Shown here: one piece after another, positions 5,001 through 63,662 of the stretch
Layout of the letters: the number at the start of each line of letters is the position of its first letter
Numbering within the stretch: position 1 is the stretch's first letter
Source of the DNA: Coprinus comatus
Lineage: Eukaryota > Basidiomycota > Agaricomycetes > Agaricales > Agaricaceae
Assembly: GCA_034638255.1 (NCBI GenBank)
Contig: JAWPGT010000024.1
Coordinates: 301,137-365,136 of the forward strand
Length of the DNA stretch: 64,000 bases
Direction of reading: 5' to 3'
Translations under genes and position numbers: made by a program
Notes under the pieces: model-generated
What the model was told of the DNA's origin: nothing
Database searches by the model: none
Seen by the model: the letters and a program-made list of their open reading frames with translations, nothing else

Positions 5001-5115
5001 GTAACGTGTCGGCTTTGGCTTTGCTGAACACGTTGGCGAATTCGTGATATTCGGAAGGGATGGCAGAAAGGTCAGGAGGTTCTGATTCGGCGAGCACAAT
5101 CGAAAGCAATCGCAT
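2080..5115 (-). CDS. pol: pol: reverse transcriptase, RNase H, integrase, chromodomain
   Basis: 1011 residues. Reverse transcriptase covers about residues 40-250, with the catalytic YLDD at 208-211. RNase H follows (ETDASDYAL near 355, then KELLAI and TDHKN). The integrase has an HHCC zinc finger near 590-635 and a DDE core with Asp in SMDFIEKLP, Asp in SDRGSEF and Glu in GQTERTNQ. The last 60 residues match a chromodomain (EYE-I-I, LLYKVAWLGY, W-P-EL), which targets chromovirus integration to marked chromatin. The true pol must start upstream: the same protein continues at 5072-5314 in another frame, so the ATG at 5115 is only where this frame opens. The neighbouring frame reads through FVNAIAF and then must shift to reach this one. 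Confidence 0.95.
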   Translation of the reverse strand: MRLLSIVLAESEPPDLSAIPSEYHEFANVFSKAKADTLPPHRPYDLKIDLEEGTSPPIGVLYSLSQIELEALREFIDKNLTSGFIRQSSSSHAAPVLFIKKKDGSLRLCVDFRGLNRISTKDGYPLPLISDLLDSPRKACIYTKIDLRHAYHLVRIAEGDEWKTAFRTRYGSFEWLVMPFGLTNAPAAFQRFMNDIFSDMLDVCVVVYLDDILIYSNDIASHKKHVREVLKHLRKHGLYACADKCEFHSESVEYLGYILGSGGLTMAQDKVQIIQDWPEPKKVKDIQSFLGFANFYRRFIYGYSDIVVPLTRLTRKGVAWSFDGEARDAFNALKKAFTCAPVLTHWVPDAQIIVETDASDYALAAIISLLTNDGDIHPIAFHSRTFSAPELNYDTHDKELLAIFKAFRIWRHYLEGAALPIDVVTDHKNLEYFSTTKVLTHRQARWSEYLSGFDLVIHFRPGRLGTKPDALTRRWDVYPKEGGVGYAAINPHNFRPVFTQDQLVASVRATYLLTPALHASVIADISKLHSDILSSLSSNAEIAEHLVKPTGRWSRDDHGFLRLDGRIYVPDAENLRVRVMQYHHNHPLAGHYGQNKTLELIRRDYTWPGIWETVKLFVKSCVTCMRSKPQCHRPYGLLKPLPIPSRPWDSISMDFIEKLPASSGFDAILVVIDRFTKQAVFIPCHDTITSADLAQLFAIHVFSKHGVPSHITSDRGSEFVSHFFRSLGEALNMRLHFTLGYHPEGDGQTERTNQTLEQYIRIYCNYQQTDWSELLPLAEFVYNNAPNASTNVSPFFANKGYHPNITVYPERDLVSTRAREFTTNLDELHATLKLEIASAQKRYQASADAKQLPSPSFKVGDQAFVKAQFFQTTRPAKKFAEKYLGPYKIIAQPGTLSYTLQLPLNFHSVHPVFHVSMLEPFTANPFPNRSDPPPPPIEIKGDVEYEISRIVNSKINRHQACKLLYKVAWLGYEDMDEEFSWLPANELEHAVELVDAFHHSYPHLPGPLSSL

Positions 5116-22442: not shown

Positions 22443-23207
22443 GGGGCAGGAGACTGATATAAATGGTAACAAATAGGTACCACTAGTTGTTATAAATGGA
22501 TACCACTAGTTGTTTCAAATAGGTACATATGTATGTATCTTACTTGGCACATATGTCTGTACCACCCTTTGTACATATATATGTATCCATTATTATTATG
22601 ATAGGCAATAGGAATGAATTAATCTGAATTTTGTACACTTTTAGATTAGAGAAATTCGAAAAATTGAAAAGAAATTAGGTGAAATATAGTAGATTTGTAC
22701 AGGAAACTTGTACAAATGTACTACATTTCTCATAATTGTAGTAGATTCCTACAAGTTTCCTGAAGAAATTTACTACATTTCTCATAATTGTGGTAGATTT
22801 GTACAAGTTACTTGTGAGAATCTACTATATTTCTCATGATTATAGTAGATTCCTACAGGTTACTTGTACAAATCTACTATATTTCTTCAGGAAACTTGTA
22901 GGAATCTACTACAATTATGAGAAATGTAGTACATTTGTACAAGTTTCCTGTACAAATCTACTATATTTCACCTAATTTCTTTTCAATTTTTCGAATTTCT
23001 CTAATCTAAAAGTGTACAAAATTCAGATTAATTCATTCCTATTGCCTATCATAATAATAATGGATACATATATATGTACAAAGGGTGGTACAGACATATG
23101 TGCCAAGTAAGATACATACATATGTACCTATTTGAAACAACTAGTGGTATCCATTTATAACAACTAGTGGTACCTATTTGTTACCATTTATATCAGTCTC
23201 CTGCCCC
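22443..23207. repeat. 765-base near-perfect palindrome (fold-back element)
   Basis: The outer 330 or so bases of each arm are almost identical inverted copies, centred near 22825; the central 100 bases pair less well. Both ends read GGGGCAGGAGACTGAT outward-in, followed by a doubled CCACTAGTTGT motif. Inside lie smaller inverted repeats around TACTAC and GTACAAGTTTCCTG. The same terminal sequence recurs at 27260-27676 and, more diverged, near 53340-53510. I see no coding content. It is most likely a non-autonomous fold-back transposon of the KDZ-associated family. Confidence 0.85.
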
Positions 23208-23374
23208 ACCTATCCCATCCCATCTCCTCTCCTGCATGCTATGCTCTCCCATATAACCTAGATGTAGACCATTGTGTCGTAGATAATTAATATAAATTAT
23301 TTCTTTTTCCCAAATTAATTAAGATTATGTCAGCATAAATTTTACATCTTGCCTCTTACCACATTGTTACTACA

Positions 23375-24959
23375 ATGCCCCCATCCTCTCTACTCCCTGC
23401 TACAGCTCTGATGTTGCCAAAACCTATTACCTTTGTTCAAGCAATTAATATTGCCTTGGTAAACAACAATGATCTTCCCGAACTCATTGCCAATGGGAAT
23501 ATTATCCGCGATCCTCTTAACAAGTTCCTAGTTGATCTTTCCAAATCTGTGGGGTCTGATGCATCGGATGTGGAGAAGCTTCGGGCTATGTTATTTAGGC
23601 ATTTGGGTCGCCTTTGCCAATTGGAAACCACCCATCCTTCTATTGTGGCAGCTTATGGTTGCTTCAAAATCACTCATATGGAGCAGCACAGGAAGAAACA
23701 GAAATTTCTTGGAAAGAACCAGATGACAAGTCGCTTTCGCAACAACACCGATCCCATCTATACCAGCATCTCTACCCTTTCCCTCTCCCGACCTCGTGCA
23801 ATCTACCCTCCCAAGGCAATGTGGGTTACTGAAAACAGTGATATCTTGGATCGTTGGTCGTTCCATCTCCAATATGGGCCAAAGGCTGATAATAGGCTTC
23901 CTCGTCACAAGCCAATGCTTTTAGATGAATCCAAGCTGCAGAAAATTGTATTGCCCCATGAATCAATAATTATCAGAGATAAGAAGACACCCGAAATTGT
24001 CCTTGTTGTTTTGAGGAATGTTGCTTCTCCAGCAGTGTTGGATCATTTGGGAGCAGTAGTTGGGGAGGCGACATTGGCAAGGAGAAATATTCGGGCGGGT
24101 ACAATCCATATTATTATTTGATTAATTATTAATGCAATATTATAGAAGGATGATGCTGGTGTGCTGGTTATGAGTGGATGGTCAGCAGGTTCTCGTTCCA
24201 AGGCAGCTTTCCACTGGGTCCGGAATATCCTTTGTAAACGATCTGAAGCTGACATCAACCATCTCAATATCCAAGAAAGCAATGCATTTGGTTTTGTTTG
24301 GAACTTGCTACAACATGGTCTACCTGAAGAAGTCAAATCCGATTTTACCAACTTCATGGAATCTACCTGACTACCTCGTATGAATGCATTTATGAAAATC
24401 AGTAACAAAACTTTGGGATCATATACAGTTAAAGCAGGAGATATGGAGTTCACATTTGATAATGTTGAATTAGCACCTCCAACTGGTGCTATGGCACAAA
24501 ATTATGCAAGGTATAATCGCAATCTACTATATTTACTTAATAAATTACTTATACTTCTTATATAGACCCATGCATAATGAGGGACAACCTCATAAGTATG
24601 CAGTTTCCTTTACAGTCGAGCGATATGGTAGAGAACATGATGGAGGGCATTTCTATGTCGCTTCATATGGGATTAAAGTGGAGCTAGAAGCTAATACGAT
24701 TATTGTTTGGCAACCGAGGCATATTCATGGAACAAGTCTTCCAAATGCCCATCCTGCTGATGAATCACCAGCCTTTTTACAAAGAGGTTTGGCATTTGTA
24801 ACCTCTCCCCGACTTCCTAATGCATGGAAAAAATATGTTGACCAAGTTTGCAAAACCCCCCATGCAATTGATGATATTGCAAAAAAAGTAGAAGAAGCTC
24901 TCTGGGGACCAGAAGCTGAACAAGATGAAGTATACGAAGATGAGACTACAGTAGTATAA
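23375..24959 (+). CDS. TET/JBP-like 2-oxoglutarate/Fe(II) dioxygenase
   Basis: Exons 23375-about 24098, 24146-24510 and 24566-24959. The reading matches the fungal TET/JBP-like dioxygenase family I know from agaricomycetes: GWSAGSRSKAAFHWVRN, VELAPPTGAMAQNYARPMHNEGQPHKYAVSFT, GGHFYVASYGIKVE, VVWQPRHIHGTSLP and QRGLAFVTS. The likely Fe ligands are H and E in MHNE (24573-24581) and H in IHGT (24726-24728); His-x-Glu in place of His-x-Asp is unusual. Family members oxidise 5-methylcytosine in the nucleus; activity here is inference. A TGA at 24368-24370 interrupts the frame where Arg fits, and the first splice gives a one-base phase mismatch, so this copy may be inactive. It starts 167 bases after the palindrome. 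Confidence 0.75.
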
Positions 24960-27676: not shown

Positions 27677-28317
27677 ATAATCGACACCATCAAACAGTTG
27701 TTGATAAAGCATGGTGTCTAGTATATTTACAAGGAAAGGGTGTTACTAGTAAGCATGTTGAGAATCTTCTTGAAGGAGAGTCACTGGTACCTGTTCAGGT
27801 ATGTCTTTTTATGGTATTTGGGTCTTTTTTCTTATACCTTGTCATTAGAATGCATTTTCAAGATGGTTGTGTTCTATTGAAGGTTTTGACTTTCATAAAA
27901 TGATTGCACCTGATCTTCTTCACGAATTTGAACTTGGAGTATGGAAGAGAGTATATTTACAGTTAATCTGGTTATTAGTTACTCTCTCAGGACATAAAGT
28001 TGAAACATTAAATGAAAGGTAAGTAGATCTTTTATTTAATACACATTCTTTGTTTTTAAGGAACAAAATTTTAGATATAGACTCATTCCTACCTATGGAA
28101 ATGGAGTTATTCAGAAGTTTCAGCATGATATGAGTACTGCAAAGAAACTTGCTGGTCATGACTATGAAGATGTTCTCCAGGTCTGTCTAAATATTTAAAA
28201 CATAATATTATTCCTTATATTAATTAAAAATAGTGTGCACTTCCTGTCTTCAAGGATCTATTTCCTCCACCACATGATCAAATAGTTCAAAATCTTTTGT
28301 TTGAGCTAGCAACATGG
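27677..28317 (+). pseudogene. Plavaka-type transposase, middle fragment
   Basis: Exons are separated by three introns (from 27799, about 28020 and 28180). The reading has KGVTSKHVENLLEGESLVPVQ, NAFSRWLCSIEGFDFHKM, APDLLHEFELGVWKRVYLQLI, LNERYRLIPTYGNGVIQKFQ and AGHDYEDVLQCALPVFKDLF, the block that precedes the C-terminal part seen at 8172-9795 in the same family. It starts right at the terminal repeat and ends where the second gypsy element begins. KAWCLVY, where relatives have KARRLVY in my memory, would be two CG-to-TG changes. Only about 150 residues survive. Confidence 0.7.
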
Positions 28318-29800
28318 TGGGTTCTTGAGTGATTAAGGCAGGTTCAGTTGAAGTGGTGTTTAAGAATAGCTTGTTTGGTAAAACCACAATGTCCACATTT
28401 TCTTCGGCAGAGTCAAAGTTATGATCTGGTTGTCTAGAGAGTGCATCTGCAGCAGGAATTTCTTTTCCTGGTTTGTGTTTTATCACAAAGTTGTATTTCT
28501 GCAGTTCAGCCCAAGTGTGAGCTTGACGACATGACAGCTTCTGCGAATCTTGCCAAAAACGGAGATTGTTGTGATCACTGTGCACAGTTACTATATGCAG
28601 CGATCCTAGTAGGTAGTGGCACCAGTCATCAAAAGCTTGTTTGATCGCAAGGAGTTCTTTGTCCGGAGTGGGATAGTTGCATTCCGCAGGTCCAAGGGAT
28701 TTAGAACGGAATGCACAATGTCTTGTAACTCCATTTTCATCAGTTTGACATAGAACACCGCCTGTTGCAAAGTCAGAAGCATCTGTTTCGACATGGAAAG
28801 GTTTGTGAGGATCAGGAGTGAGAAGGATAGATCCATTCGCAAACATGTCTTTAACAGTGTTGAAAGCTTCTTCTGCTTCTGGGGTCCATTTAAATGCAAC
28901 CAACTTGCGTAGAAGGTCATTTAGAGGACGGGTGATATTGGCATAGTCCTTGATGAATTTCCAGTAGAAGTTTGCAAATCCTAAGAACTTTCTAACTTCG
29001 CGTTGTGATGTTGGGATAGGCCATTCTGCAATTCCAGCCAGTTTGTCTTCAGACATGGTGATACTATTCTGGCTTATTGTCATTCCTAGGAATTCTATGG
29101 AGGTTTTCTCGAATTCGCATTTCTCGGTCTTGAGATAAAGATCGTTTTCTTGGACTCTTTTTAGAACTTCTAGAGTCATCTTGTTAAGATCTTGCTTGTT
29201 ATCGGAGAAAATGAGAATATCATCCATATAGACAATAACTGCAGTACAACCAGGTTTGTCAATGAGATCTCGGAAGATATGATCCATCATTGCCTGGAAC
29301 ATTGCAGGAGAATTTGTCATTCCAAAGAACATAACAGTAGGTTCAAAAAGACCGAATGGAGTTTTAAATGCTCCTTTCCATTGGTCTCCATCAAAGATGC
29401 GAACATTGTTATATCCAAGACGAACGTCCATTTTGGTGAAGTATTTAGCTCTACGGAGGCAGTCCATAATTGAGCTGATGTTGGGAATGGGATAGGCGTT
29501 TTTCACAGTGTGGGAATTGAGGTAGCGATAATCTTGACATGGTCTAAGAGACTTTCCATCTTTCTTGTTGATGAAAAAGAACAGTGATGCCATAGGAGAT
29601 TTAGATGGTCGGATATATCCTTTGGCTAGGTTTTCATCAAGAAAGGTCTTTGATTCATCCATTTCAGCCAGTGCAAGGCAATATGGTTTGTAAGACTTTG
29701 GAGTGAAGGTTTCTTTTAGATCAATGCAATGATCACAAGGTTGTGATGGAGGAAATCATTCTGAGGCCTTCTTGTCGAAGACAGGAAAATATTTCCATAA
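28250..29800 (-). pseudogene. second gypsy element: reverse transcriptase and RNase H
   Basis: The open part (29662-28250) has RT motifs FINKKDGKSLRPCQDYRYLN, FGMTNSPAMFQ and YMDDILIFS, then RNase H (ETDASDFATGG, KELLAI, SDHNNLRFW) and the linker ADALSRQPDH. Upstream in the same frame the reading crosses a TGA (29756-29758) inside SE-stop-FPPSQPCDH, where family members have SxRFP, so Arg was lost. The integrase is absent: near 28318 the sequence changes to a Plavaka fragment, and the last 20 residues of the frame are antisense to that fragment. Dead copy. Confidence 0.88.
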
Positions 29801-34189: not shown

Positions 34190-37100
34190 TTATGTTGGGA
34201 CCATATTATTTGAGCACTTGGCAGTGCTATATGTGGGATTAGAAAACTCCAACCCATAATAGTTATCATGGAAGTATTCAAACTTTATGCGTCCTAGATT
34301 CTTTGTGAGAAGATCAGCAGGGTTCTCAGTGCCTGGGATAAAATAGAGCTGAACCTTCTTTTCATCAATTACTTGACGAATGAAGTGGAAGATGATGTCT
34401 ATGTGTTTTGATCTCTTCTCGACGGCAGGATTTTGCGCGATGAAGAGAGAGCCCATATTGTCTCCACAAATATCCATTGGTTCATTGTTATGTAAACCAA
34501 GTTCAGTCATTAGGCTTCTGATCCAGATGGACTGACAACTACAATCGGAAATAGCCATGTACTCAGCCTCTGTGGACGATAACGCAATAGTCTTCTGTGA
34601 TCGACTGACCCAGGCTACTGGACAGGATGCAACAGTGGACAGATAACCAGTTTGGGATCTTCAAGTAGAAGGATCACTAGCCCAATCAGAATCACTATAT
34701 GCAATAAAGCCTTCATTACCAGCACCATTAAGCGTCATTCAATATTCTTGAGTCACTAGTAGGTATCTGCAAATATAGAGAGCTCTACACAAGTGTTCTT
34801 CTGTAGGGTTATGAGAATGTTGACTTAGCTTAGTCACAGTGAACGAAATGTCCAGACGTGTGCCAATAGCAATGTACAACAGTGATCCGATCACCTGTTG
34901 GTACCTAGAACAGATGGAGGAGTTGATCGGCTTGTTGTTCGGAGCTGGATAGTACCCTTCTGGCAGCGGAGTTCGCGCCGGCTTGGTGTCACGGTCTGAG
35001 CCAGTGATTTTAAACCTTTCCAGGATCGTCTCTAAATAAGCACATTGATCAAGATAGATCTTTCGATTAGCTCGATCTCTCCTGATGCGCATACCGAGAA
35101 ATTCTTTGACTTCTCCAAGGTCGCGGCATTCCCACTTTTTCATGAACTCTCCTTTAAGCTTTTTAAGCAGGGCGGAGTCATTTCCCATAAAAAGTACATC
35201 ATCAACGTACACGACAGCAATGACAAACTTGCCATCTTTTCGACGATATATACAAATACCAGCATCGGATTCACATTGCTTGAAGCCTAGTTAGTTCATG
35301 GAAGATGCCATCTCCTTCCACCAGGCCAAGCCGGCTTGTTTAAGGCCGTACAATGCTCGTCGTAACCTCCACACCATGTGTTCTTTACCCTTAAGTTTAA
35401 AACCTTCAGGTTGATCCATGTAGATTTCCTCATCCAATTTGCCATAGAGATATGCTGTCTTTACATCGACAGACTCAATGTCCCAGTCTTCAAGGGCGGC
35501 TAACCCGAGCAGGATTCGAGCGGACTCATATCTAACTACTGGAGAGAATAGTTCGTCAAAATTGATGCCCTCGATTTGAGAAAATCCTTTAGCAACTAGT
35601 CTAGCACGTTTGCGACCATCACTCTTTTCATTAAAGACCCATCTATTTTTTACGGTTCTTCTTCCTTCTGGAAGTTTCACCAACTCGTAAACTTGTCGCT
35701 TTTTCAGTGCATCTAGTTCTTCAAGACAAGCTTTGTGCCAGTGTTTACGTTCCTCTGGATTCAATTTTACAAGATCACAGAATTGCTCAGGAACTGTATT
35801 TGAACTTGCTTTTGCCAATAAAAAGTTCATCAATTCTAACCCCCCTTCCTTAGTAATCCGTTGAATCTTACAATCTTCATATTCTTCCATTGTGTCAGGA
35901 TGTTGTTCCCTTGCATATTGCCGTGAAGCATCCTTGTGTTGTCTGTGTATTTCATTGCAACGTTCTCGGACTTCTTTGGGCAAAATGGGATGTGGATCTA
36001 CTTTTGGGCAATCTCGTTGATTGCGGATTCTAAAATCAGTTCCACAGAGACGAACTCTCCCCTGGGGTGGTAGAGGTTCATTGTGATTGTAATCTCGTAG
36101 GATTTCAGATGGATGTGTTCTCTCCCCATAAATGTTACCTTCTCTAAATGGAACAAACTTTTCTCTGCCAGAACGGCAAGGTAAAGGTTCAACTGGTCTA
36201 GTTAAGTGTTCAGGTCGTTCAGGTGATGGAGAAATGGGACAGGTGGAGTCAGTCCTAGGAGCAGGGCTCAGACTAGGTTGACGAATTGGTGATCCTGGAT
36301 CAGTGTAAGATAACGCGTCATCATCATCTTCATCAGATACTTCCTCAACTGTTGGTTTCCTGGGAGCAGGTTTACTCGGACTGGGAACAGGAGGTTTTTG
36401 AGAAGTAGATGGTCCAGGGATCGGACCTTGCGGTCTAGGCATGGGTGTTCTATCACTGTCATCTTGTTGAGATGTGTCCATAGGATCATCAGGATAAAGA
36501 TCAGGTGTAGTATCCTCGTCATCTTCATCAGACGCCGGAGGAGGAGGATTTATTTTGGGGTTTTTAGAAGAACCGGAGTCCTTACGATTTTCGTGATCCG
36601 GCTTGCATTTGGGATACCAGCCCTCGTCGAAAATAGCTGTTTTCGCAGTATAAATAACATTTCCTTTTTGGTGTCGCATAAACGTAAAGTTAGCGCCAGC
36701 ATAACCAAGGAAGATCATTAATTCAGATCTGGGAGATAATTTGTCATCCCTTGATTCCTTTGGAATGAAAATGTAGGCTGCACAGCCAAACACGTGAAGC
36801 TCAGATAAATCTGGCTTTTTCCCTGTTACCATTTCCATGGGAGTTTTCCATTCAAGATGTTTGATGGGAGTTCGATTATAACAATGAACTGCTGTGTTAA
36901 GGGCAAATTCCCACCAAGAATCTGGTAAGCATGCAGTAAGTCACATGGCCTGTGCTTTTTCCTGAAGTGTGCGGTTCAGTCTTTCTGCTCTACCGTTCTG
37001 CTGGTGTATATGTGGTGCAGACATCTTGTGAACTATCCCTTTTGAGTGAAGGAATTCCTCAAATTTCTTAGAGACATACTCTCTGCCATTGTCGGTCCGG

Positions 37101-38197
37101 ATACGCTTAATCGTGTTACTGAATTGTTTTTCCTCAAAGGCACAGAATCTTTCAAGTGCCATCAAGGCATCAGATTTGGCTTGTAGGAGGAGGATCCAGG
37201 CGTGGCTTGAATAGTCATCATAGAACGTCATTGCCCACTTGTACTTGTGATACGAGGCAACGGGGAATTCTAGAAGATCACTATGGATCAATTCTAAAAA
37301 TGACTTCGCTTGTGTTGAAGAAGGACAATGTGCATCATCAGACATTTTGCCATGAGCACAACCATCACATACTTGACCGGAGATAGGAATATCAAACTCA
37401 GGTACTTTCTCTGAGTGTTTTGGGAGTTGTTGCAATACTTCCTTTCCAGGATGCACCAATCGATGGTGCCAAAGATCATAAACAGAAAGCTTCGATGTGC
37501 AATATGATAGCACCTGGTTTGCAGTATAGTGACGCACCATCCTAGTGTGAACATGATGGAGGGCATCTTCCATAACTTTAAATGTTGTGATGCGTGATGC
37601 ATGCATGAATAATTTTCCATTTGAACGAAATATGTTGGTTCGCTTTAAGTTAGACTCACTCCTCATTCCTTGCAGCCATAAGGCGCCAGGTGAAATGATT
37701 CTAGTGGAGAGAGACTCTAGATAATAGACCAGGTATAGTGGAGTCGTTCTAATAACTCTGTCTACGTTGTGTTGAAAGAGAATTTTCCCACGACCTTTTA
37801 TGGTTATGAGTTTATTGCTGGCATCTCTAACACCACCAAATTCTCCTTCCTCTAACTCGATAAAGTCAGCTATATGCAGTGTGCAATTAAAGCTAGCGCC
37901 TGAATCGAGGAGCCAAACTGCAGACTCTCTAGCATAATTAGGTTTCTCTTTATCTTCACAAAAATTGCATAAGCATTCAAGAGGTTTCGATGGTTCATCA
38001 CCATTTTTAGGATCTTTTAAGTATTTCGTCGGTAAGACAAAATGATCACAAGTTGAAATGGGAGAAGGAGTCATATTCGAAACAGAAACGGGAGTACAAA
38101 CAGTAGTAGATGTAATAAGAGAACTATCAATAGTCCGACAATAGTCCAGCAGTCCATTATGGCGCACTAGAACATGGGGTCTGATGGAGTGATTGGT
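34190..38197 (-). pseudogene. pol: copia pol: protease, integrase, RT, RNase H
   Basis: Protease active site WLLDSGASFNCT. Integrase: zinc finger HHRLVHPGKEVLQ..CDGCAHGK, then a DDE core with Asp in LIHSDLLEF, Asp in RTDNGREYVS and Glu in GRAERLNRTLQ. RT: LVAKGFSQIEGINF, TAYLYGKLDEEIYM and YVDDVLFMG. RNase H: AYSDSDWASD, SSTEAEYMA, ADLLTK. All parts share one frame. Stops are at 36941-36943 (TGA), 35291-35293 (TAA), 34739-34741 (TGA) and 34661-34663 (TGA). The last sits in ST-stop-RSQTGYL, where Arg is strongly conserved; the 36941 stop lies in AM-stop-LTACLPDSWWEFA, where Arg is usual. Confidence 0.92.
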
Positions 38198-39712
38198 TCA
38201 TCTCCCCAACCTTGCTGGGTTGGGGCATCTCTGTAAGTTCCATTTAGTTAAGAAGAATTCTTGAGAGAAGAAAGGAACGTACTCATTGTACCAACCATCA
38301 TCGACCTCGTAATCACCATCAGCTTCGTAGTCCGGATCATTCATGTAGGCATCAGCCTCGGAGATCGCTTCGGGGACATTGGAAGGTGGGACATATGAAG
38401 GAGACTCAGATCTGCACATGGGGGACCCAGGTGTAGAAACCGAAGACGAATCAACTTCCTCTTCAGGAAGGATGTGTGACACCATTGCATCAAGCGATGG
38501 TGGAGGTGATGGGGGACAAGGTTCAACCAAGCTGAAGCCAAGGCGAGCACCCATCTTCTCGAAGACCTCTGTCTTCTTTTTCTGATACCGGGTATGACCG
38601 ACCAGGTGTCCAACAGGGGGAAGAAGAGTAGCACGAGGAGCAGCAGGCTCGACACCGTGTACCACAACTTCATCTGCAGCCTTTTTCAAGGCTACTGCCC
38701 TGAGGCAGGGATCAGTTGTCTTCATCCTCTCAATGAGAGAACGAGTGGAAGGAGTAGTGTTAGTGGGAGTCGTAAAAGACTCCAGAACAGCAGGAGACAG
38801 AATCATGTTGACATTACCATCTTCTCCTTCGGCCTTGTTTGCCTTGTTGCCTCCACATTTTCTGTGTCGATGCTTCTTCTTTTTATCCTTATCCCCCCCA
38901 GAAGCATCACTGCCAGAACTGGAGTTCTGGTTTTGGTTCTGATTAGAACCGGATGCTTTCTGTTGTTGTTGGGGCTGCTGTGGAGCACCACCAGAGGGTT
39001 TAGAATAGGGCTTCGCACCCTTGTAGTTTTTAATGCCGGTAGAAGCGGCACGAGAAGCAGAAGCAGCTCCACGGGAATCACGCCAAGCACCCATGATTGC
39101 ATCAGAGACGATTTGGACCGTTAGGGTCGAAAGGGAATTACCATATTGGACAAGCAGGGCAGCACAAGTAGCACTCCATTGTGGAGGAATGCGTGTCATC
39201 AACATGAGAGCCCGAAGGATCTCAGGAACATTGATGGGGGGCGAGGCTTGCTGTAACTGCGTGAAGTAGTTCCTAAAGGCAGAGATCTCCTTAGAGGGAT
39301 CATTCACACCAGATAGTTGGAACGAATCTGCAGAAGCATACAGCTCATAGGCTGCACCTGCCAAAAATGTGCTGTACATACATCTTAGGTGGTTCCATAA
39401 ACCATCAGAGGTAGTCTGTCCATGCCAAAGCATTTCATCACTCAATCAGGAATTTAATATCCCAAGAGCAAAAGACTTGCAATTATCAAACTTTCGAATT
39501 TCATTGACTTTCGTGGGGGGTACCATAGTGGTGGTGCCGACTGCAGGTGAACCACCGACAGCTGCAGGCCTTGTGGCGCTGCCGTCGATCATATGTGCAA
39601 TGCACCATCCATCCATGTGGATCATGTTAGCAATAGATATTATCCGCGCTTCCCAAATTTGGTAATTCGCAGTGCCTGTGAGAACTGGGATCAAAGGGAT
39701 CAAAGAGGCCAT
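38198..39712 (-). pseudogene. gag: copia gag
   Basis: Two open parts in one frame, 39712-39449 (MASLIPLIPVLTGTANYQIWEARI) and 39445-38201, separated by a TGA at 39446-39448 in LGILNS-stop-LSDEMLWHGQ. The helical region matches copia gag (LWNHLRCMYSTFLAGAAYEL). A Lys/Arg/His-rich stretch (KKKKHRHRKC) stands where a CCHC knuckle is often found, and no full knuckle is seen. The gag end is a TGA (38198-38200) and pol continues in the same frame, so it may be either a natural readthrough stop or another CGA-to-TGA change. Confidence 0.85.
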
Positions 39713-42548: not shown

Positions 42549-43269
42549 GTGTCATGATCAAAGCAGGGTTGGATGCTGTTGATATACGAGTTGCCATGTT
42601 TGCCAGTGATACTATCAAGTTTCCTCTGAAGAGCAGCAGTGTTGATTGTAAGAATAGATTGTAGATAAATGTGTTATTACAGATGCACATTGTTGTTTGT
42701 TGTATATTCTTTTTTCTCCTGAATATACATGTTTTAAATCATGGTTTCTCTCATGTATGAATGTCAATGGCTTGACTGCCGAATCACGTTGTGAGCGCCC
42801 ACATCAGCAAAACGCGCATCTCCTTGGCCAAGCTTAAACCTCCTTAAACCTCCTTGAAAACATTTCCAAGGATGACCAAGGATATATCAAGAATGTAAAA
42901 GAATTTTTATTCTCTCCTTGGAATTACTTAGTCATGCTTGACAAGTCGATTCCAAGCTATTCTAAGCAGGGGGTCCTGGTTAGTCACACTTAATTCTACT
43001 TAGTTTTACCTTATATCTACTTGTACTGCCTTCGAAAATACTTTCTCAAGCTTATAAATCAGGTATATCAGAATATATATATATAAAAAGCGAAATTTCA
43101 AGGACTCCTAGAGTGTCTCAAATGCATGTAAATGTATATCAACTGAATTATATTATCAGAAGGGAGACAGTAATGTACAAAAATACAAGAGTGATTGTAT
43201 ACAGCATAATAGTAGTGTATACTACAGTAATGTACCGAAATAAAGATAAAAAATTACAAGAATATATTC
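42549..43269. other. no gene seen
   Basis: AT-rich, with a short (AT)n run near 43072-43084. No frame with a domain. Confidence 0.4.
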
Positions 43270-44350
43270 ATAATAGGAGAACTTACTTGGGAGAATAAAG
43301 AACTGGACATTGCGATACGAGTATTGATCGGAACGTTACGTGGGTAGGTGCGTTCGAACGGCGCCGTCGAGACGGTTTGAACGATGCTAAGAACATAAGA
43401 TTCCGATAAGGATTGAGTATCGAAACAGGTGTTAGATTGAATAAGAACTTACCAGAAGATAGGTCACTACAACTCCAGCAGTCCTCCATAGTGTGTACAA
43501 ATCAGGGGTGGAACAGAGAATGTACGCGTGGTGTAAACGAGCCTGAAAGCATGTTATGGAGTGCAGGAGGGAGTGAGATATCAGTAAAATAACAGGATTG
43601 GTGTAAAAGTTAGAGAACATACTTTTCACCAATGAATACCCCACCATACCACACCGTACTACCCTCTATCGATTTGCCTTTTCGATGCGGTTCCAACGAG
43701 CCTAAGAACGTGGTGTATGGTGCGAAAATGACTGTGTTAGTAGTTGTAGAGTGAACAGTATACTCACAAGATAGACCTTAGAAGATAAGGTCACTACATA
43801 TCCACAACTTCTCCATATCGTTTACAAGTTGGAGATGTCATAGAGGTGGTACGCGTAGGTTAGACGAGCCTAAGAATGTGCCATGGAGTGCAGGAGGGAG
43901 TGAGAAATGAGTAAAATACTTCCCTTGAGACAGATAATGACTCACCAAGGAAGAAACCCCCCTTCGTGGGGTATACACCATACCACGTCATCACCTAACC
44001 CTTCTATCCTATAGTACACGTCGAGAAGGTTTTGGAGCGCCTAGAAACATTCCTGTATGTAGAAAAATGAGTGATACAGAAGAGAAACAGCAAGTAATGA
44101 CACACCAGCAGTAAAACTGATGTTATAGCATGGCTACTGCATCGGGACACGTGTATGTAGGCTTGTTCGAAGCGGAGTATTGAGGTTGTCCTGGAGAGCC
44201 TGAGAACGCGCCAATACGCAATTATATGAGCCCAATACATGGAAAATAGTCGAAATTGACATACCTTATAAGAATAATGAAAACCCCACCATATCACGCA
44301 TACATAGACTCATTCAATGCATAATGTCAAGACGGTTCCAACGAGCTCCA
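43270..44350 (-). repeat. tandem array of exon/intron-like modules (about 340-base period)
   Basis: On the minus strand two alternating block types recur about every 170 bases. Type B (43451-43541, 43768-43868): 5' GCTCGT..ACGCGTAC ..TATGGAG.. and AGTGACC.TATCTTCT. Type A (43627-43699, 43944-44040, 44266-44345): 5' CTCGTTGGAACC.. and TATGGTGGGG.. TTCATTG. Each block is followed by a splice-donor-like GTAAGT, GTGAGT or GTATGT and preceded by TTCTTAG or TTTCAG. Some blocks are open (ARLHHAYILCSTPDLYTLW), others have stops. It may be a decayed gene made of repeated exons. No domain is recognised. Confidence 0.45.
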
Positions 44351-45477
44351 ACGCGTAGAGTTTCATCAAGGAATGAGAGTGCAGTGGTGACATTACTCAG
44401 AGTCGGCAGTGAGTAGAAGTTGTGACCTTCGTGAGGTTGCATTGCTGATGCAACATGTCCTGTCACATGTGATGGTGAGAGTGATCATGTGACAGTCCGA
44501 TTTTGCAATTTTTCGTGAAGTCCAAATCTGGGAACATAAATGATGTGATTATTGATGCATCATCATGAAATAACAACACATCATTAATGACATCAACCAA
44601 ACAAATGAAACAAAAACAAAGTCAATAACACAAATTAACTTTGACTTTTTGTGACCTTAGAATAGTGCTTGGGAAACTTAAAAACTTGGTTGGAAATATT
44701 GACTACCTTAGAGTTACTTTGAAAATATATATCTAAGTATCAGTAAGTATCAGTAAGTATACTAAGCTACCCAAGCTATACTGAGTACTTACTAAGGACA
44801 TGCTGGAAATGCTGATGCATCTAGTAATCGGCCTGGTTTCAGATGATCTGGCAAGACCTGGTGACGTGGCATCAGACCCAGGGTCCTCAGGATCAGGGGC
44901 CATATATACCAGCCCAAGCACAAAAATGTTCTTTCTTATTTCCCCCCACCATCCCCCACCTTTTTCATCTCTGTATCCCCATTGTTCAACATCTGCTTCA
45001 TCATTCTCGAGATGGGGCTTATGTATTGATCACTTGCTTGCTGCTTTACAATTCTGTTGTCATCTTTAATCCTCTCGTCGTCGTCATGATCGTCTATGTA
45101 TAGCTGGTTCCCTCGTCATTGTCTATGATCAACATATGTTATTGGCCTTGTCTGTGTTGATCAACTTGTATTTATAGCATGTACTATAATAAGGTGAGTA
45201 CTATTTATAATGTAAAGTTACTTCTATTCTTGGTATTTTTATTTCAGTCTTCCTGTTTATTCTTCTACCTTGACGATGTCACACCAGAGGCAGCCCTGCA
45301 TCATAATCTTCATTCATGCTGAGGGCCCCAGCTATGAACATGATTGTGTGTGGTACTGGTGTTACCTTTCTTTGAAAGGTCTTCGTTACATAGGGGCACA
45401 TGTTGACTTGCCGCTTGTTTCAGAAACGTAGAGCTGGCGTTGATATTGTTGTTCTTATGCTGTTCCATCCTAATGTG
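44351..45477. other. no protein gene seen; possible leader of the hairpin array
   Basis: A TATA-like CATATATACC near 44900-44909 on the plus strand precedes CT-rich sequence. A perfect 7-bp hairpin ACCTTTC-TTT-GAAAGGT lies at 45364-45380. No domain-bearing frame. Confidence 0.3.
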
Positions 45478-45852
45478 CCTGGAGGTTTTGTACTTCCAGG
45501 GTTCCTCTTGTTCGCAGGAGGAGGGGTGGGTGTGGGTTAGTGCTTCATGACTTCGTGTTGTGAAGGTTTCTCTTGTTTGCAGGAGAAGGATGGTCCTTGA
45601 GTTGTCCCTGTATTATTATTATCATCATCAATGTGCCTGGAGGTTTTGTACTTCCAGGGTTCTTCCTGTTTGCAGGAAGAGATGGTGTGTTCTCTTTTCA
45701 ATAACCATTTATGTGCTTGGAGGTTTTGTACTTCCAAGATACCCCTTCTTCGGAGGAGGTAGGTGGTTGTTCTGGGTCTGGGGGCTATCTATTGTCCACT
45801 CTGATGTGCCTTGAGACTTCATGTTTCAAGGGTTCTCTTGTTCGCAAGGGAG
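45478..45852 (+). ncRNA. five tandem two-hairpin modules, probable structured RNA
   Basis: Stem 1 is 9 bp with a 5-base loop, always 23 bases long, at 45478-45500, 45543-45565, 45636-45658, 45716-45738 and 45809-45831; e.g. CCTGGAGGT/ACTTCCAGG, CTTCATGAC/GTTGTGAAG, CTTGGAGGT/ACTTCCAAG, CCTTGAGAC/GTTTCAAGG. One to three bases later stem 2 is 7-8 bp with a TTCG or TTTG loop, at 45504-45521, 45568-45587, 45661-45680, 45741-45760 and 45833-45852; e.g. CCTCTTG/CAGGAGG, TCTTCCTG/CAGGAAGA. Bases differ between copies while pairing is kept. Imperfect pairs are nearly all G-T, which are G-U pairs only on the plus strand; one C-A mismatch occurs in copy 4. All but copy 2 are preceded by ATGTG. I know no family that fits. 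Confidence 0.65.
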
Positions 45853-46647
45853 GAGGGATGATTTCTTCTTGTGTCTTCATCTTCAGTATGGTTCAACATC
45901 CGTTTTCATAAGTACTTCTATTTCAATTCTACTTATCTAACTTTTGGCTTGTCTTATAGATTTTTGTGATAGGTGTTGGGTGTTGACAAACTTGGTGAGT
46001 GTCAGTCTGTTAATCTATTCTATTCTAATCAGTGTTTTCTATGTTTTCTTGGGTGGGAGAGATTTAGAATAGAAATGTAAGTTCAACTTTTTATTTGTTA
46101 GACAACTGATGTATTTGGGATTTCAGGTTGTTCACGAAATTGTGGTTTGTGGTTTACAAGCTTTAAGGTGATGTTTCTTTTACTTGTTCTTTATTTCTAA
46201 TACTGATTCATCATTCCAAGGTCTTAGGTAAAGTAGTGTAGTTGTATATAGTATTTTTTTCATAGTATACATTTCTTTTGGAACATGTATTCCTTGTGGC
46301 TTGAGCACCCACAAGTAGTATATGTTTCATTTTCACTTTTAATATGAAGTTAGCTCAAACTTCTTATTGAAAGTGTTTTTAATCTTCTTCTTGACTTGTA
46401 TTTTGAATGTATATAATTTTTTGCTAAAATGTCGTCCTAACCCTAACCCTAAATGCCATTTTTTTGCACTTGTAACTATTATATTATAATGAAATATATT
46501 TTAATATCATATTTCTTCTTTAAGCATCTCTGTGTTAAATTCAATATAAGATTCCTTTTATAGCTATTGACTGATTGATTGATTGATTGATCTTTGATTC
46601 AAATACTTCAAGATTATATCTTTCATTCTCTAACTTGTACCACCATC
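45853..46647. other. AT-rich stretch with a telomere-like tract
   Basis: No gene. CCTAACCCTAACCCTAA at 46436-46452 equals nearly three TTAGGG units on the minus strand. A GATT repeat lies at about 46570-46592, just before the PHD gene. Confidence 0.5.
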
Positions 46648-49621: not shown

Positions 49622-52604
49622 ATGGGCAAAAGACGAAGACAAATCTCTAATGATTTTACATCTCTTTTATTACTGGAATCTCCTCCAGAACCATTTTCTT
49701 CTTTGACTACTCTAGATGATCCTCTATCTGGTCCAAGTTCAACACCTCAGAAAAAACCACGTCATCAAAAACCTGGGTTCAAAAGAAGAAGAAAATCTAT
49801 TTCTTTTAAATCCACATCTCAAGAACTTTCTAACCCTTTTGATCATCTTACAATAACTGGTATACCTACCTTTAATCTATCTTCAGAGCCTGAAGTACCA
49901 GATCAATATATACAAGATGATATATTTGGACTACCAACTCCTCAAGATACCTATGATGAATTTGTCAATGGAGTTTTAACTAAGGCAATTCCTTTCCATC
50001 GACTTACATCAAATATATACATTGTTCCAGGTTGGGATGCAAAATCATCTATTCTAAAGGTATGTATTAATACTTAAATAATACATTCTATTTCTAAACC
50101 TATAATAGGATCAATGGTTTCATTTACAAATGGATTATTCTTCAAGCCCTCCTATACCTGTTTGTTATTGTGGTCAAGGAATATCAACCAATAACTGCGT
50201 TCACACAAGATTTTTATTACAATATCCTAATAAGTTTGAAGATCCTGAAGGTTAAATTCTATTCTAAAGTTATTTTATCATAACTCAAGTTATATTTTAG
50301 ATATTGACTCTGATGTTATTATTTTCCTACGAGAAAGGATTGAATTTGGATTTCTTAATCTTTTTTCAGTATCATCAAAAAAGGATCCCAATGCTGTTAA
50401 AGGTCACACTATTACTTCTTATAAGGGTCCTGATAATGGTCTTGGAACTTGGAGTTGCAATAAAGATCCTGGAACCAAATGTACTCATATACAAAGATCA
50501 ATACTCTATTTCAATGGAAATGGATTTTCTGCATCTCAAGATCCTAATAATAGAGGTGAAAACATTTATTAAACATTTTATGATTTATTAATAAGGTTTA
50601 TCTCTAGATAATCTTTCTATTCCTATTGTGGGGATTAAAGACAATAAACCCATTTCATATCAACCTATATTACCTCCTTTATCATTCCGGATTCCTACCG
50701 ACAATATTGCCCTATATTCTGAAACACCTCCTGTTACCAACCTTCCACCTCTTCTTTCCTTGAACGATTTCTCCAAATGTTCCTGTGAACAAGAATATAT
50801 GAAAGTACATCCTACCTATGAGTTGGATTGTATTGTCTATACTCTTACAAAATCAATCGCTACAAGAATTCAACTTAACAAAAATGCCCAAGCTGTTCTA
50901 AAAGTCGTTATCAAGCAATTGGACCAGATTGTAGGGAATATGGAATCTTTAATCTCAACAACCACTCCTTATTCTCCCATGACCTTCTTGAAGACTATAC
51001 TATCTCCTATGCAACCTCTGAAACTCCTTTTACCTCTTGGGTAAAAGTAGTGTCTTCAAGATATCAGAAATATCAAAGCTCTCTATCTTTTGTGGATGAA
51101 AAGACTTTTCGTTCTGCTTGGTTTGGATATGCTTCTCTTCTTTTATTAGAAGAAGATATGAAATGTCCTCAATGTAAAGATATTCCAGAGACTATAATTT
51201 GGGATGGAGTTACACTTGCCTTCAGCAAAAAACATCTTCAACAATCTCTCCATCCTCCAACCTCTATTCATCCCAATGCTCCTATACGAAATTGCTTATA
51301 TATTTGTAACCAGGCTTTTATTGAAAATTCTGATTGTAGAAAACTATTAAGATCTACATTTTCAGAACCTTTATGTCTTACTCCTCCTTCCAAAAACTTG
51401 CTTTCTGATAATGATTCTTCTGAGGATGAATCTCATACCACAATTACCAAAAATCTTCAAAAACTAATTACAAGACTTGAAAATCTCCCTATCCTTCAAG
51501 ATATGCTTAATAAAGAAAACCAATCTTTGGGTTTACTTTTTAAATGATATTGCACTACAAGTGCAATATCAAAACATAATAATCAATGTCCAAAAGAAGT
51601 TGTTTCATTTTTTTACCAGGTATTTTATCAATTCTTGATTAACTGTTATCAATACTATTCTCATATTGAATAGTTAGGAAGTAATGACTCTGCTCTTCAA
51701 GTTATTAACCGACCAGCATTGTTATTATTGGAAGACTTTATCAATGATCCTACTCAAAAAACAAATTTCGATCATTTGTGTTATATTCCATCCTTATTTT
51801 GGCTTCTAAACTATGAAAGAAAACAACAACCATATTGGGATAACTCTATTCTTGGGGTTTGTTCTTGATGATGAAAAAGATGTAAAGGATTGATAGAAAA
51901 GATAATTAAATATCCTTGTCCCAAGATTATAGATAATATTGAAAAAACTGAAGGTGGATGGCAAAAGGTATTTTTTATATTATAACTGCCTTATTTTTTT
52001 TACTAAATTTCTATAGAGTGGATGTAAATATAGTTTACCCCAAATCCGTTATAGACCTCAATATCCTGGTCTTAAACATGAAGCTGGAAATGAGCCAAAA
52101 GACAGAGGTGGAAAATGTAATAAATATTACAGCACTTATGGAGAATCTGGCTTAACTGGAGGAATTATGTGTGCATGGTGCACTCATTCTATTTGCTATG
52201 GATATCATTGTATTCCTTCAAGCGAAGGAAGAAATGATGTATTTTCAGCAATGGTTACAAGATGGCCAAAAGCTCCCAAATATGTTATTTATGATTTTGC
52301 TTGCCAGCTTGGACCTTATTGTCATTCAAGAGAGCCCGACTTTTTTATGGATACCCTATTTCTCATTGATAATTTTCATTCTACAGGTCATAAATCTTGT
52401 AGTGCAGCCTATTTTCTTAAAACATATTCTTCTAGCCAACCATCATTAGGAAAAATCAACTCTAGTGCAGCAGAATGTGGAAATGGAGGACTTACAAGAA
52501 TTAGAAAATCAGTTAGATATATGGGGCAAGAAAGAGCAATTATATATACTGCAGTTTTTCTATCATTATGGAACAGAAGTAGAATATTGAATCTTTTGAA
52601 GTAA
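49622..52604 (+). pseudogene. KDZ-type transposase with cysteine clusters
   Basis: Basic N-terminus (MGKRRRQ, KKPRHQKPGFKRRRK). Cysteine clusters of the kind found with KDZ transposases follow: TWSCNKDPGTKCTHIQRSIL, CSCEQEYM, KCPSCSKSRYQAIGPDC and DMKCPQCKDIPETIIWDGV. The C-terminal core reads CAWCTHSICYGYHCIP, EGRNDVFSAMVTRWPKAPKY, YDFACQLGPYC, LIDNFHSTGHKS and INSSAAECGNGGLTRIRKSV, matching the agaricomycete KDZ family. Acidic residues in YDFAC, LIDNFH and AAECGN are the likely catalytic set. Breaks: a one-base shift in an A run near 50880, and three consecutive TGA codons at 51866-51874 (C-S-stop-stop-stop-K-R), where Arg-Arg-Arg would fit. It would mobilise the element. Confidence 0.75.
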
Positions 52605-53275: not shown

Positions 53276-53339
53276 AACTTATGTTTTTTTTTTTGCATAT
53301 GACAAAACTAAAGGTGTAGAAAATCATCATTAATCATGA

Positions 53340-53510
53340 AAAAATGTGTCATATAATAATAATGGGTATATATATACAGACATATGTACAATAAAAGGCA
53401 CATACATATATATAATGAAAAGAACATACGTATGTACCCAATTAAAACAACTAGTGGTACCCTTTTATAACAACTAGTGGTACCTATTTGTTACCACTTT
53501 TGGGTCATCA
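53340..53510 (-). repeat. right terminal repeat of the KDZ element
   Basis: Shares with the palindrome and with 27260-27676 the blocks ATAATAATAATGG, GTATATATA, the twice-repeated CAACTAGTGGTA (from about 53446 and 53471) and CTATTTGTTACCA. It then passes into host sequence (TTTTGGGTCATCAGC) that leads into the EamA gene. I find no matching left end between 41 and 46.6 kb. Confidence 0.65.
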
Positions 53511-53599
53511 GCTATTTGGTTGCTGGGCGTAAATCTCTATCTCTTTTATCTGCATCATTCAAATGCATGCTGACTCCGAATTTCATTAACAGTTTTTAG

Positions 53600-62042: not shown

Positions 62043-63372
62043 TCATGCAGGATCCGATGACAACACGGACATATTCTTTGCTTGCGCTGTCATGCGTCCA
62101 ATGAAAAATGGGCCAGAGCGAGATCCATCCTCTAGATAGTCCACAAAAGACTTATGTTCAAAAGGTAGGTAAGTCGGGCTGAACTTAGATTTGAGGGAGT
62201 AGCGTAGCACGGAATTCAACTTGTGAAGAGAACTGTGCATCTGATGCATCGGAAGTTGGATAAGTTGCTCAGCTGACTGAATGATCTCCAGAGTCGATCC
62301 TCGGGGTACATAAATATATAGTCAGCATTCGTTTTGTGGTGGGAAAGATGTCGTCTGGAATGGTGGACATAATCAAGTTATAGAGAGCATCCAGATCTGC
62401 AAAGGGGTTCTGCTTTCTTTCCGAGTCCTTTTGGTTCCTCCTCGCATTCTCGATACCGTCAATGACCTGGTTCAAGAGTGTCACAGGGTCCCGATAGTCC
62501 ACATCATCAATAAACTTCATCACTGTGGAAGCAAAAGCAAAAAGACCACTGGCATAACTGGCAATCGTCAGGAACTGAGTCTCTGTTGGCCATTGATGTG
62601 GATTGGGAATAGAACGAGAATTCCTAAGACGAATGTCTGCGAATCCAGATCGTAGGTACCGTTCGACATCCGCACACGATTCATCCGAGTCGATCTCAAT
62701 CTCGTCCATGTCGTAAGTTGGCAATACCTCCGGGAGTGCAAATACGTCTTCTATATGTGATTCAGGACGACTGCTGACAAGCCAAAGGAGAGGAGCAGTT
62801 GGATGGTCGGATACAAATGTAGCAATGAGTTCAATGATTTCACACTGTGCTTTCTCCCCCTTGCACTCGTCAAGTCCATCCAAGATGATGACAATTGGTT
62901 GGGTATCAGTGTGCAACTTCATATGAACAAAGGGTTGCGTGATAAAGTGGAAGAGCTGGGTTTTCATTGATCGTTCAGGAAGCTTTGGATCTTCATTGAG
63001 CTTCGACAACAAAGGTTGTCGGTATGGCGGATAACGTGCATATAGTTGGTAAGCGATGGTGGTGAAGAGTCGGTTAGGGTCACTACGACCTCCATTTGAG
63101 TCAGACCTCCAGAAAAAAAATGCTGCTCCTGGCTTCGCAGCTGTAGGAGAGAATATGGATTCTGCGATTGATTGCAGAACAGCAGATTTGCCAACACCTG
63201 CCGGTCCTTTCACCCAAAAGAACGGTTTCTGTCCACATCCATGATTGAGAATCCATTCACGTAATCGTTCCCGAAGACGAACTCGGGTGTTGGGATGGCA
63301 TTGAGGAGGCGGGTTACGTTCTGAAGAATCCACGTCAGCACCGGGAACGGTATATTTGAGCAGCATCTTCAA
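62043..63372 (-). pseudogene. NACHT-domain NLR-like protein
   Basis: The open part 63372-62269 (367 residues) starts at an ATG. It has Walker A GPAGVGKS (residues 56-63), Walker B VIILDGLDEC (about 158-167), and WLVSSRPESHI (sensor 1), as in agaricomycete NACHT proteins. These NTPases form the core of fungal NLRs involved in non-self recognition. The frame closes at 62269, but the family continuation (SAEQLIQLPMHQMHSSLHKL, SFVDYLEDGSRSGPFFI) follows in a shifted frame to 62043. So the gene has a one- or two-base shift at about 62285. No N-terminal effector domain and no repeat domain are visible in frame. Confidence 0.85.
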
Positions 63373-63662
63373 AGCTTAGGAATGTTGAGTGTCAGAATTT
63401 TTATATTAACCGCAGGTTTTGAGATTACTCACTCCTGTTATCGGTATCGGGTGTTTGTTGGTAATTATTCGATACCATTATTGGGCTATTTATTACAAAA
63501 TCGCGAGATCGAGCGAAGAAGGTATTCGAAGGGGGGAGACTGGAATTGGTCGTGTTGGATAGTAGACCAGGTTCATTTGTAGCAAGTGGGAGGCAGTCTC
63601 TTGCGTTTTGTTGGTTTCCTAGTACTAGAACTAATTCTTACAATCCTGAGCTTAATACGAAA
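63373..63662. other. short intergenic stretch
   Basis: Separates the two NLR units. No gene seen. Confidence 0.4.

Follow-up and report, generated by a model that had tools for sequence, protein, structure and literature searches.

A Kyakuja DNA transposon of an agaric fungus carries a tandem array of five covarying three-way junctions that points to an RNA element on its own transcript

The analysed window is a 64,000-nucleotide stretch (G000:C24:301137-365136) of a 35.7-Mb agaric genome in 134 contigs, and it contains one of 14 copies of a Kyakuja (KDZ) DNA transposon that carries the array described below. In the window, the repeated unit extends from at least 44818 to about 53514 and encodes on the plus strand a CxC4 exon (50879..51547; PF18717, E 1.6e-31) and a KDZ transposase exon (52017..52604; PF18758, E 2.8e-5, 24.4 bits, just below the curated cut-off of 26.6). 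At E 1e-3 the KDZ protein has 382 relatives; PF18758 is present in several of the 120 listed, and the named protein relatives among the matches listed are from agaric fungi. A KDZ exon is located downstream of the array in 11 of the 14 copies; as for the three copies without a listed KDZ exon, those on C78 and at C27:346810 reach the contig end, and the match of the C96 copy stops near window position 46635. In the one copy checked, that on C78, a TET/JBP exon is present about 5.4 kb upstream of the array (L009:245-802, minus strand; PF12851, E 1e-14); the window copy, interrupted in its left part, has no such exon. At its right end (53497..53518, plus strand) the unit reads ...CAGCTATTTG, and the three copies seen there share the form CAGCTAYYTG, ending in TG, with flanking DNA that differs between them. 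The left end was not found; in the window, the 7 bases that follow the right end have no upstream match with CA behind it. Kyakuja elements of two Laccaria families are described as having 7-bp duplications, 5'-CA..TG-3' ends and no inverted termini (PMC12730594, in the part of the text available). Because it contains KDZ and CxC4 exons, a TET/JBP exon in one copy, and a right end in TG, the unit fits the TET+ Kyakuja transposons of Agaricomycotina.

Several other elements were observed in the window. A separate 2-kb insert (42802-44817) is present in the window copy and absent from the 12 copies aligned there; since its last 318 bases have 99–100% copies at 10 other places, it is probably a recently active mobile element. 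Inside the Kyakuja right end, the segment 52665-53248 consists of about 19 palindromic 31-bp repeats with a TTTAGTAGAATTCTACTAAA core, with similar stretches at many places in either orientation. A foldback, MITE-like element (22461-23189) shows a match of ~72% at both of its ends to the Kyakuja right end (53276-53499). This element was rejected as the left transposon end, as the two adjoining open frames (23339-24959) are without a Pfam match and the second also occurs at array-free genomic places, with relatives on C1, C126, C65, C30, C13, and C15. A 128-base stretch (46325-46452) matches 8 other genomic places at 69–71%, and the idea of a telomerase RNA, raised by the telomere-like CCTAACCCTAACCCTAAA near 46431 within this stretch, was dropped. 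Judged from their translations, minus-strand frames at 2080-5115, 28250-29755, and 34190-39445 resemble gypsy-type/copia-type polyproteins. An exon of a NACHT/NPHP3_N protein is located on the minus strand at 62269-63375, with best relatives of 46% identity and named relatives from Leucocoprinus, Macrolepiota, and Agaricus.

The array assembles five tandem modules on the plus strand, in agreement with the original prediction, with the first hairpin (P2) of each starting at 45478, 45543, 45636, 45716, and 45809. Each P2 is a 9-5-9 hairpin and is followed by a 7–8 bp hairpin (P3), whose loop is UUCG in modules 1, 4, and 5 and UUUG in modules 2 and 3 of the window copy. The modules had been described as two hairpins; both hairpins are present, but each module type is in fact a three-way junction, in which an outer stem (P1), overlooked at first, encloses P2 (9 bp) and P3 (8 bp). 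P1 widens the feature to about 45464-45864. Each motif is roughly 70 nt long and runs from P1 through a six-base segment that ends with AUGUG to P2, and from there over two bases to P3 and P1'. Module 1 (45464..45530) comprises P1 (45464-45471/45523-45530), the junction AAUGUG (45472-45477), P2 (45478-45500), and P3 (45503-45522). Module 3 (45623..45687) has the same arrangement, with P1 at 45623-45629/45681-45687, AAUGUG at 45630-45635, P2 at 45636-45658, and P3 at 45661-45680. In module 4 (45700..45771), P1 reaches up to 10 bp (45700-45709/45762-45771), followed by UAUGUG (45710-45715), P2 (45716-45738), and P3 (45741-45760). Module 5 (45795..45858) consists of P1 (45795-45802/45852-45858) with one bulged A, judged by eye, GAUGUG (45803-45808), P2 (45809-45831), and a P3 of 7 bp (45834-45851). 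Module 2 (45537..45594) is damaged: P2 (45543-45565), P3 (45568-45587), and the 3' arm of P1 (45588-45594) are present, while the 5' arm of P1 is absent because 16 bases are missing in comparison with the 12 other copies with module 2, all of which keep them (one of these less one base). An intact counterpart of module 2 is located at L010:5090-5162 on the minus strand.

Folding of the plus-strand modules alone gave P2 and P3, with the P3 of module 4 in a shifted register that places a bulged A in place of the C-A mismatch, and 0, 0, 0, 0, and 1 of 200 shuffles folded equally well for the five modules. When the flanks were included, P1 was formed in window modules 1, 3, and 4 and in module 2 of L010, L017, and L015, the three other module-2-bearing copies folded. 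A covariance model built from modules 1, 3, and 5 and module 2 of L010 recovered the held-out module 4 at E 7e-17 with P1 paired. On scanning the window, the five modules alone scored below E 0.1 (the next match at E 0.15), window module 2 being matched in part, without its P1. RNAalifold on the five modules returned the identical three-way junction, in which, at 15 of 24 pairs, one or more of the sequences differ in both partners. The invariant bases are in the junction, the foot of P2, a G-U step, and the loops, and the G-U pair is found at the same position in all five modules. A long-range stem GGAAACG/CGUUUUC around the array is unproven; its 3' arm reads CGTTTTT in 7 of the 12 copies with this stretch and CGTTTTC in 3, and differs further in 2.

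Comparison of the five module types revealed that the pairing is kept while the stem letters change, and the compensatory nature of the change that had been proposed proved real. With the 3' letters of each pair reshuffled exactly among the module types, standard pairs were observed in 118/119 cells against 92.7 expected (p 3.7e-14), or in 116/119 cells when the module 5 bulge was left out (p 2.2e-13). Pairing was found in 35/35 cells of P1 (p 2.7e-6), 45/45 of P2 (p 2e-6), and 38/39 of P3 (p 0.0024), with both-sided changes at 17 of 24 pairs; these reshuffling p values are somewhat generous, since the alignment of the modules followed their structure and the P1 register was picked by folding. 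Upon exchanging 5' and 3' strands between modules, the native energy was reached by 1, 2, and 2 of 120 assignments for P1, P2, and P3, respectively, the native assignment being included among the 120. The mismatches were also almost all G-U on the plus strand, as noted originally (18 G-U against 1 A-C among the five types, p 7.6e-5), and this excess favours the plus strand as the RNA. The folding energy of the minus strand is weaker than that of the plus strand in all five modules, and the whole-array z is −6.63 on the plus strand and −4.39 on the minus strand; the z-score of module 3 is slightly more extreme on the minus strand (−5.67 vs −5.13).

These data bear on a DNA-level explanation, in which the inverted repeats would be kept by replication template switching or by transposase binding and would have no role as RNA. 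The array is carried by a DNA transposon whose right end contains other palindromic repeats, and template switching can create or maintain hairpins and yield double changes (PMC8794818, in the available portion of the text), so that the original argument that tandem DNA repeats alone do not preserve pairing was too strong. P1 and the G-U pairs, however, are not easily explained by such copying. Although some 50 bases, two hairpins among them, separate the arms of P1, every cell pairs; a G-U pair at the same spot in all five modules is not expected from copying; a double-strand process predicts a balance of G-U and A-C rather than the ratio observed on the plus strand; and binding sites would retain their sequence, which P1 does not. 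The P1 and G-U pairs argue against template switching as the whole cause, and we regard an origin at the DNA level as quite unlikely.

Comparison of the 14 copies showed that ten contain five modules, among them the window copy with its damaged module 2, while L018 and L019 have four, L020 has three, and L021 has three up to the contig end. In L020, module 1 is joined to module 3 and P1 is weakened. The variable loop sites are at CpG in 14 of 14 cases and the stems are without CpG, indicating that copies differ between UUCG and UUUG through CpG decay and not through structural covariation. Outside CpG, variable sites account for 6/238 stem and 10/148 spacer positions (Fisher p 0.06), with 0/70 in P1. 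Of the six stem changes, judged by eye, three retain a standard pair and three break the pair. The stems thus show at most weak constraint after amplification, and the covariation mainly predates the amplification of the transposon copies. A wider count took in 31 distinct sequences from 64 modules in the 14 copies. Its cells were paired at 94.1%, against 76.5% in shuffles and 53–59% with slid partners, and the double-change cells exceeded every shuffle; two of the five measures do not favour structure, namely the pairs with a double change (16, matched by 40/500 shuffles) and the further pair types (31, matched by 499/500). Because the 31 sequences are closely related, the evidence was rested on the five types, and the patterns used detected no diverged module beyond the 14 arrays, so that the covariation comes from five module types in one transposon family of one genome. 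Within this scope, the structure of the five-module array is well supported.

The array was also considered as a repeated protein-coding stretch, read on the plus strand with the AUGUG as starts or on the minus strand. A minus-strand frame of 163 codons is found in 6 of the 13 copies measured (for example at L014:4233-4724, opposite to the array), with 173 and 143 codons in two more and 195 in L018, where the stretch is longer, and several spacer indels are 3 bases long. The 163-codon frame was longer than 998/1000 shuffles of its L010 counterpart, with 2/1000 reaching its length, which overstates the case since shuffling destroys the repeats. In contrast, the longest minus-strand frame spans 104 codons in L016, 120 in L019, 86 in L020, and 100 in the window, and the frame is shifted by 1-base losses in L009 and L016 and by the 16-base loss in the window. 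Differences between modules are spread evenly over the codon positions (5/5/4 for modules 1 and 2, 5/6/7 for modules 2 and 3), and module 5 is one base out of register. The best plus-strand frame (86 codons, L010) was reached by 435/1000 shuffles, and the 163-codon minus-strand frame has no protein relatives at E 1e-3 and no Pfam match above the cut-off. A coding role is very improbable in our judgement.

Analysis of the surrounding sequence suggested that the array may belong to a spliced plus-strand transcript. A TATA-like box (CCATATATACC, 44900..44910, plus strand) is exact in 13 of the 14 copies, and transcription would start from it. The array would be contained in a putative exon 2 (45248..45994, plus strand), which has splice-like sites on both sides, between putative introns at 45194-45247 and 45995-46126. 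The first donor (exact string) and the first acceptor (one base free) are present in 14/14 copies, the second donor (up to two changes) in 13/14, with L021 reaching the contig end before the site, and the second acceptor (exact) in 11/14. In another Kyakuja family of the same genome, family 2, the counterpart of the second intron reads AAACTC|GTAAGT in 5 of 6 copies and ATAAGT in that on C102, and its exon starts with GTAATTCACG, compared with GTTGTTCACG in the array family (both by eye).

Two motifs upstream of the modules are common to other Kyakuja families, whose remaining noncoding DNA hardly aligns. CR-b (AGGGCCCCAGCTA, 45322..45334, plus strand) occurs at 26 genomic places, 23 of which are beside Kyakuja-type sequence (14 array copies, 6 of family 2, and 3 of family 3 on C13, C65, and C126), with 0 in the control; the remaining 3 matches, two on C4 and one on C14, were rejected as family members, being in unrelated sequence and taken as chance. 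CR-d (45407..45439, plus strand) occurs at 20 places, the 14 array copies and the 6 of family 2, with 0 in the control. The distance from CR-d to the downstream KDZ exon is 6.6 kb in the window, 5.8 to 6.4 kb in the family 2 copies on C3, C98, C102, and C108, and 19 kb in that on C33, and the genome listing of KDZ exons contains none near the C83 copy. Because their hairpins fold no better than shuffles (z −0.03 to −1.04), CR-b and CR-d may act as DNA. Families 2 and 3 are without modules: in a search of 12 loci of these families plus two upstream pieces (L054-L065, 17.8 kb) with the covariance model, filters off, the best match was an AT-rich one at E 0.095 (12.3 bits), while true modules score 54.8 bits or more. 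A three-way junction of family 2 at the place of the array was rejected as well, its lowest-energy fold being alike but with z 0.09 against shuffles and another fold preferred by 4/6 copies. The exact module pattern matched 55 times in the genome (8 for the reversed-pattern control), 48 of them in the arrays and the 7 elsewhere unpaired in P2 by eye, and the two-mismatch pattern matched at many places among the matches listed, about as the control predicts (53). The module patterns had 0 matches in prokaryote genomes and viral contigs.

The fold, its covariation, its strand bias, and its location in 14 copies of one transposon are established by the data above, and the array suggests that the transposon's own transcript bears an RNA element so far undescribed. 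Our preferred reading, which we hold to be about evenly balanced between right and wrong, is that a TET/JBP-carrying Kyakuja makes a plus-strand spliced transcript whose noncoding exon 2, with its five three-way junctions, would be a long leader of the transposase mRNA and not a free-standing noncoding RNA. The loss of modules in L018, L019, and L020, the module-free families 2 and 3, the two unfavourable measures of the wider count, the weak stem constraint after amplification, and the 163-codon minus-strand frame across the array are evidence against this reading. The same structural evidence would serve a free-standing structured noncoding RNA that works in trans, perhaps as a scaffold, perhaps as a decoy that draws off silencing proteins of the host. 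The distance of more than 6 kb from the array to the KDZ exon, the conservation in other Kyakuja families of a promoter-proximal stretch with CR-b and CR-d, and the AUGs of the junctions, which would be expected to hamper a leader, all speak for such an RNA, whereas the splice-like donor at the end of the exon suggests that the transcript continues, and the other families have no modules; we consider it possible but rather unlikely.

If exon 2 is a transposase-mRNA leader, the modules could be binding sites on it, a guess prompted by the placement of the invariant bases described above, which resembles that anticipated for a repeated protein-binding site. Each module would present one site for the same RNA-binding protein, which would touch the junction AUGUG, the G-U step kept constant in P2, and both UU-loops, and five sites in a row would allow multivalent binding that might control the export, stability, or translation of the transposon message; on its own, we offer this mechanism tentatively and regard it as somewhat doubtful. 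An improbable further reading is that Kyakuja elements in general encode a structured RNA that has CR-b and CR-d as its hallmarks, is lengthened by the array in one family, and forms a component of the machinery for transposition or of that for TET/JBP; if true, this would make Kyakuja a DNA transposon that brings along an RNA cofactor. DNA transposons have been described mainly through their proteins and termini, and a covarying, repeated RNA fold within such an element suggests RNA-level control or a cofactor made of RNA. The TET/JBP genes of Kyakuja are thought to counter host silencing (PMC12730594, in the text available), and a structured RNA in a TET/JBP-bearing element would add a testable new layer, for which 14 copies and three families of Kyakuja within a single genome are available for comparison.

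The array matched no known RNA family, in line with the original prediction: Rfam is without a match at gathering score in the window, Rfam 15 at E up to 5 gave REN-SRE alone (E 1.3, a 13-base stretch), a further Rfam search gave one match (E 3, far below its gathering score), and the tRNA search gave none. No description of this array was found in the open-licence literature, where absence is not proof of unpublished status. Double-hairpin elements are mobile short units with dispersed copies in mitochondrial DNA. Those of fungal mitochondria are similar to the array in having units with two hairpins, as far as the available accounts go, while the array is nuclear, is within a DNA transposon, has a third stem that encloses the hairpins, and was found in 14 arrays alone, with no dispersed single modules (patterns used). 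An exonuclease-resistant viral RNA (xrRNA) is a three-way junction closed by a ring-like pseudoknot, and of these two features the three-way junction is the one seen in the array. The TET+ Kyakuja elements (PMC12730594, in the part available) correspond in the KDZ transposase, the CxC cysteine cluster, the TET/JBP gene (one copy here), and the TG-3' right end, and that part mentions neither a noncoding RNA nor an array of hairpins, with 0 occurrences of 'hairpin' and 'noncoding' in the main text. The 3' untranslated regions of flaviviruses, according to the portion available of PMC3960163, contain tandem duplicated, untranslated folds proposed as a protein scaffold or sponge; these are of virus RNA and differ in fold and place, so that the analogy is functional only. 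The Ty1 leader RNA (PMC5454406, PMC5408680) provides another fungal transposon transcript with RNA structure, with no tandem modules mentioned in the available parts of these papers; Ty1 packages its RNA, which is copied to DNA, whereas Kyakuja is a DNA transposon.
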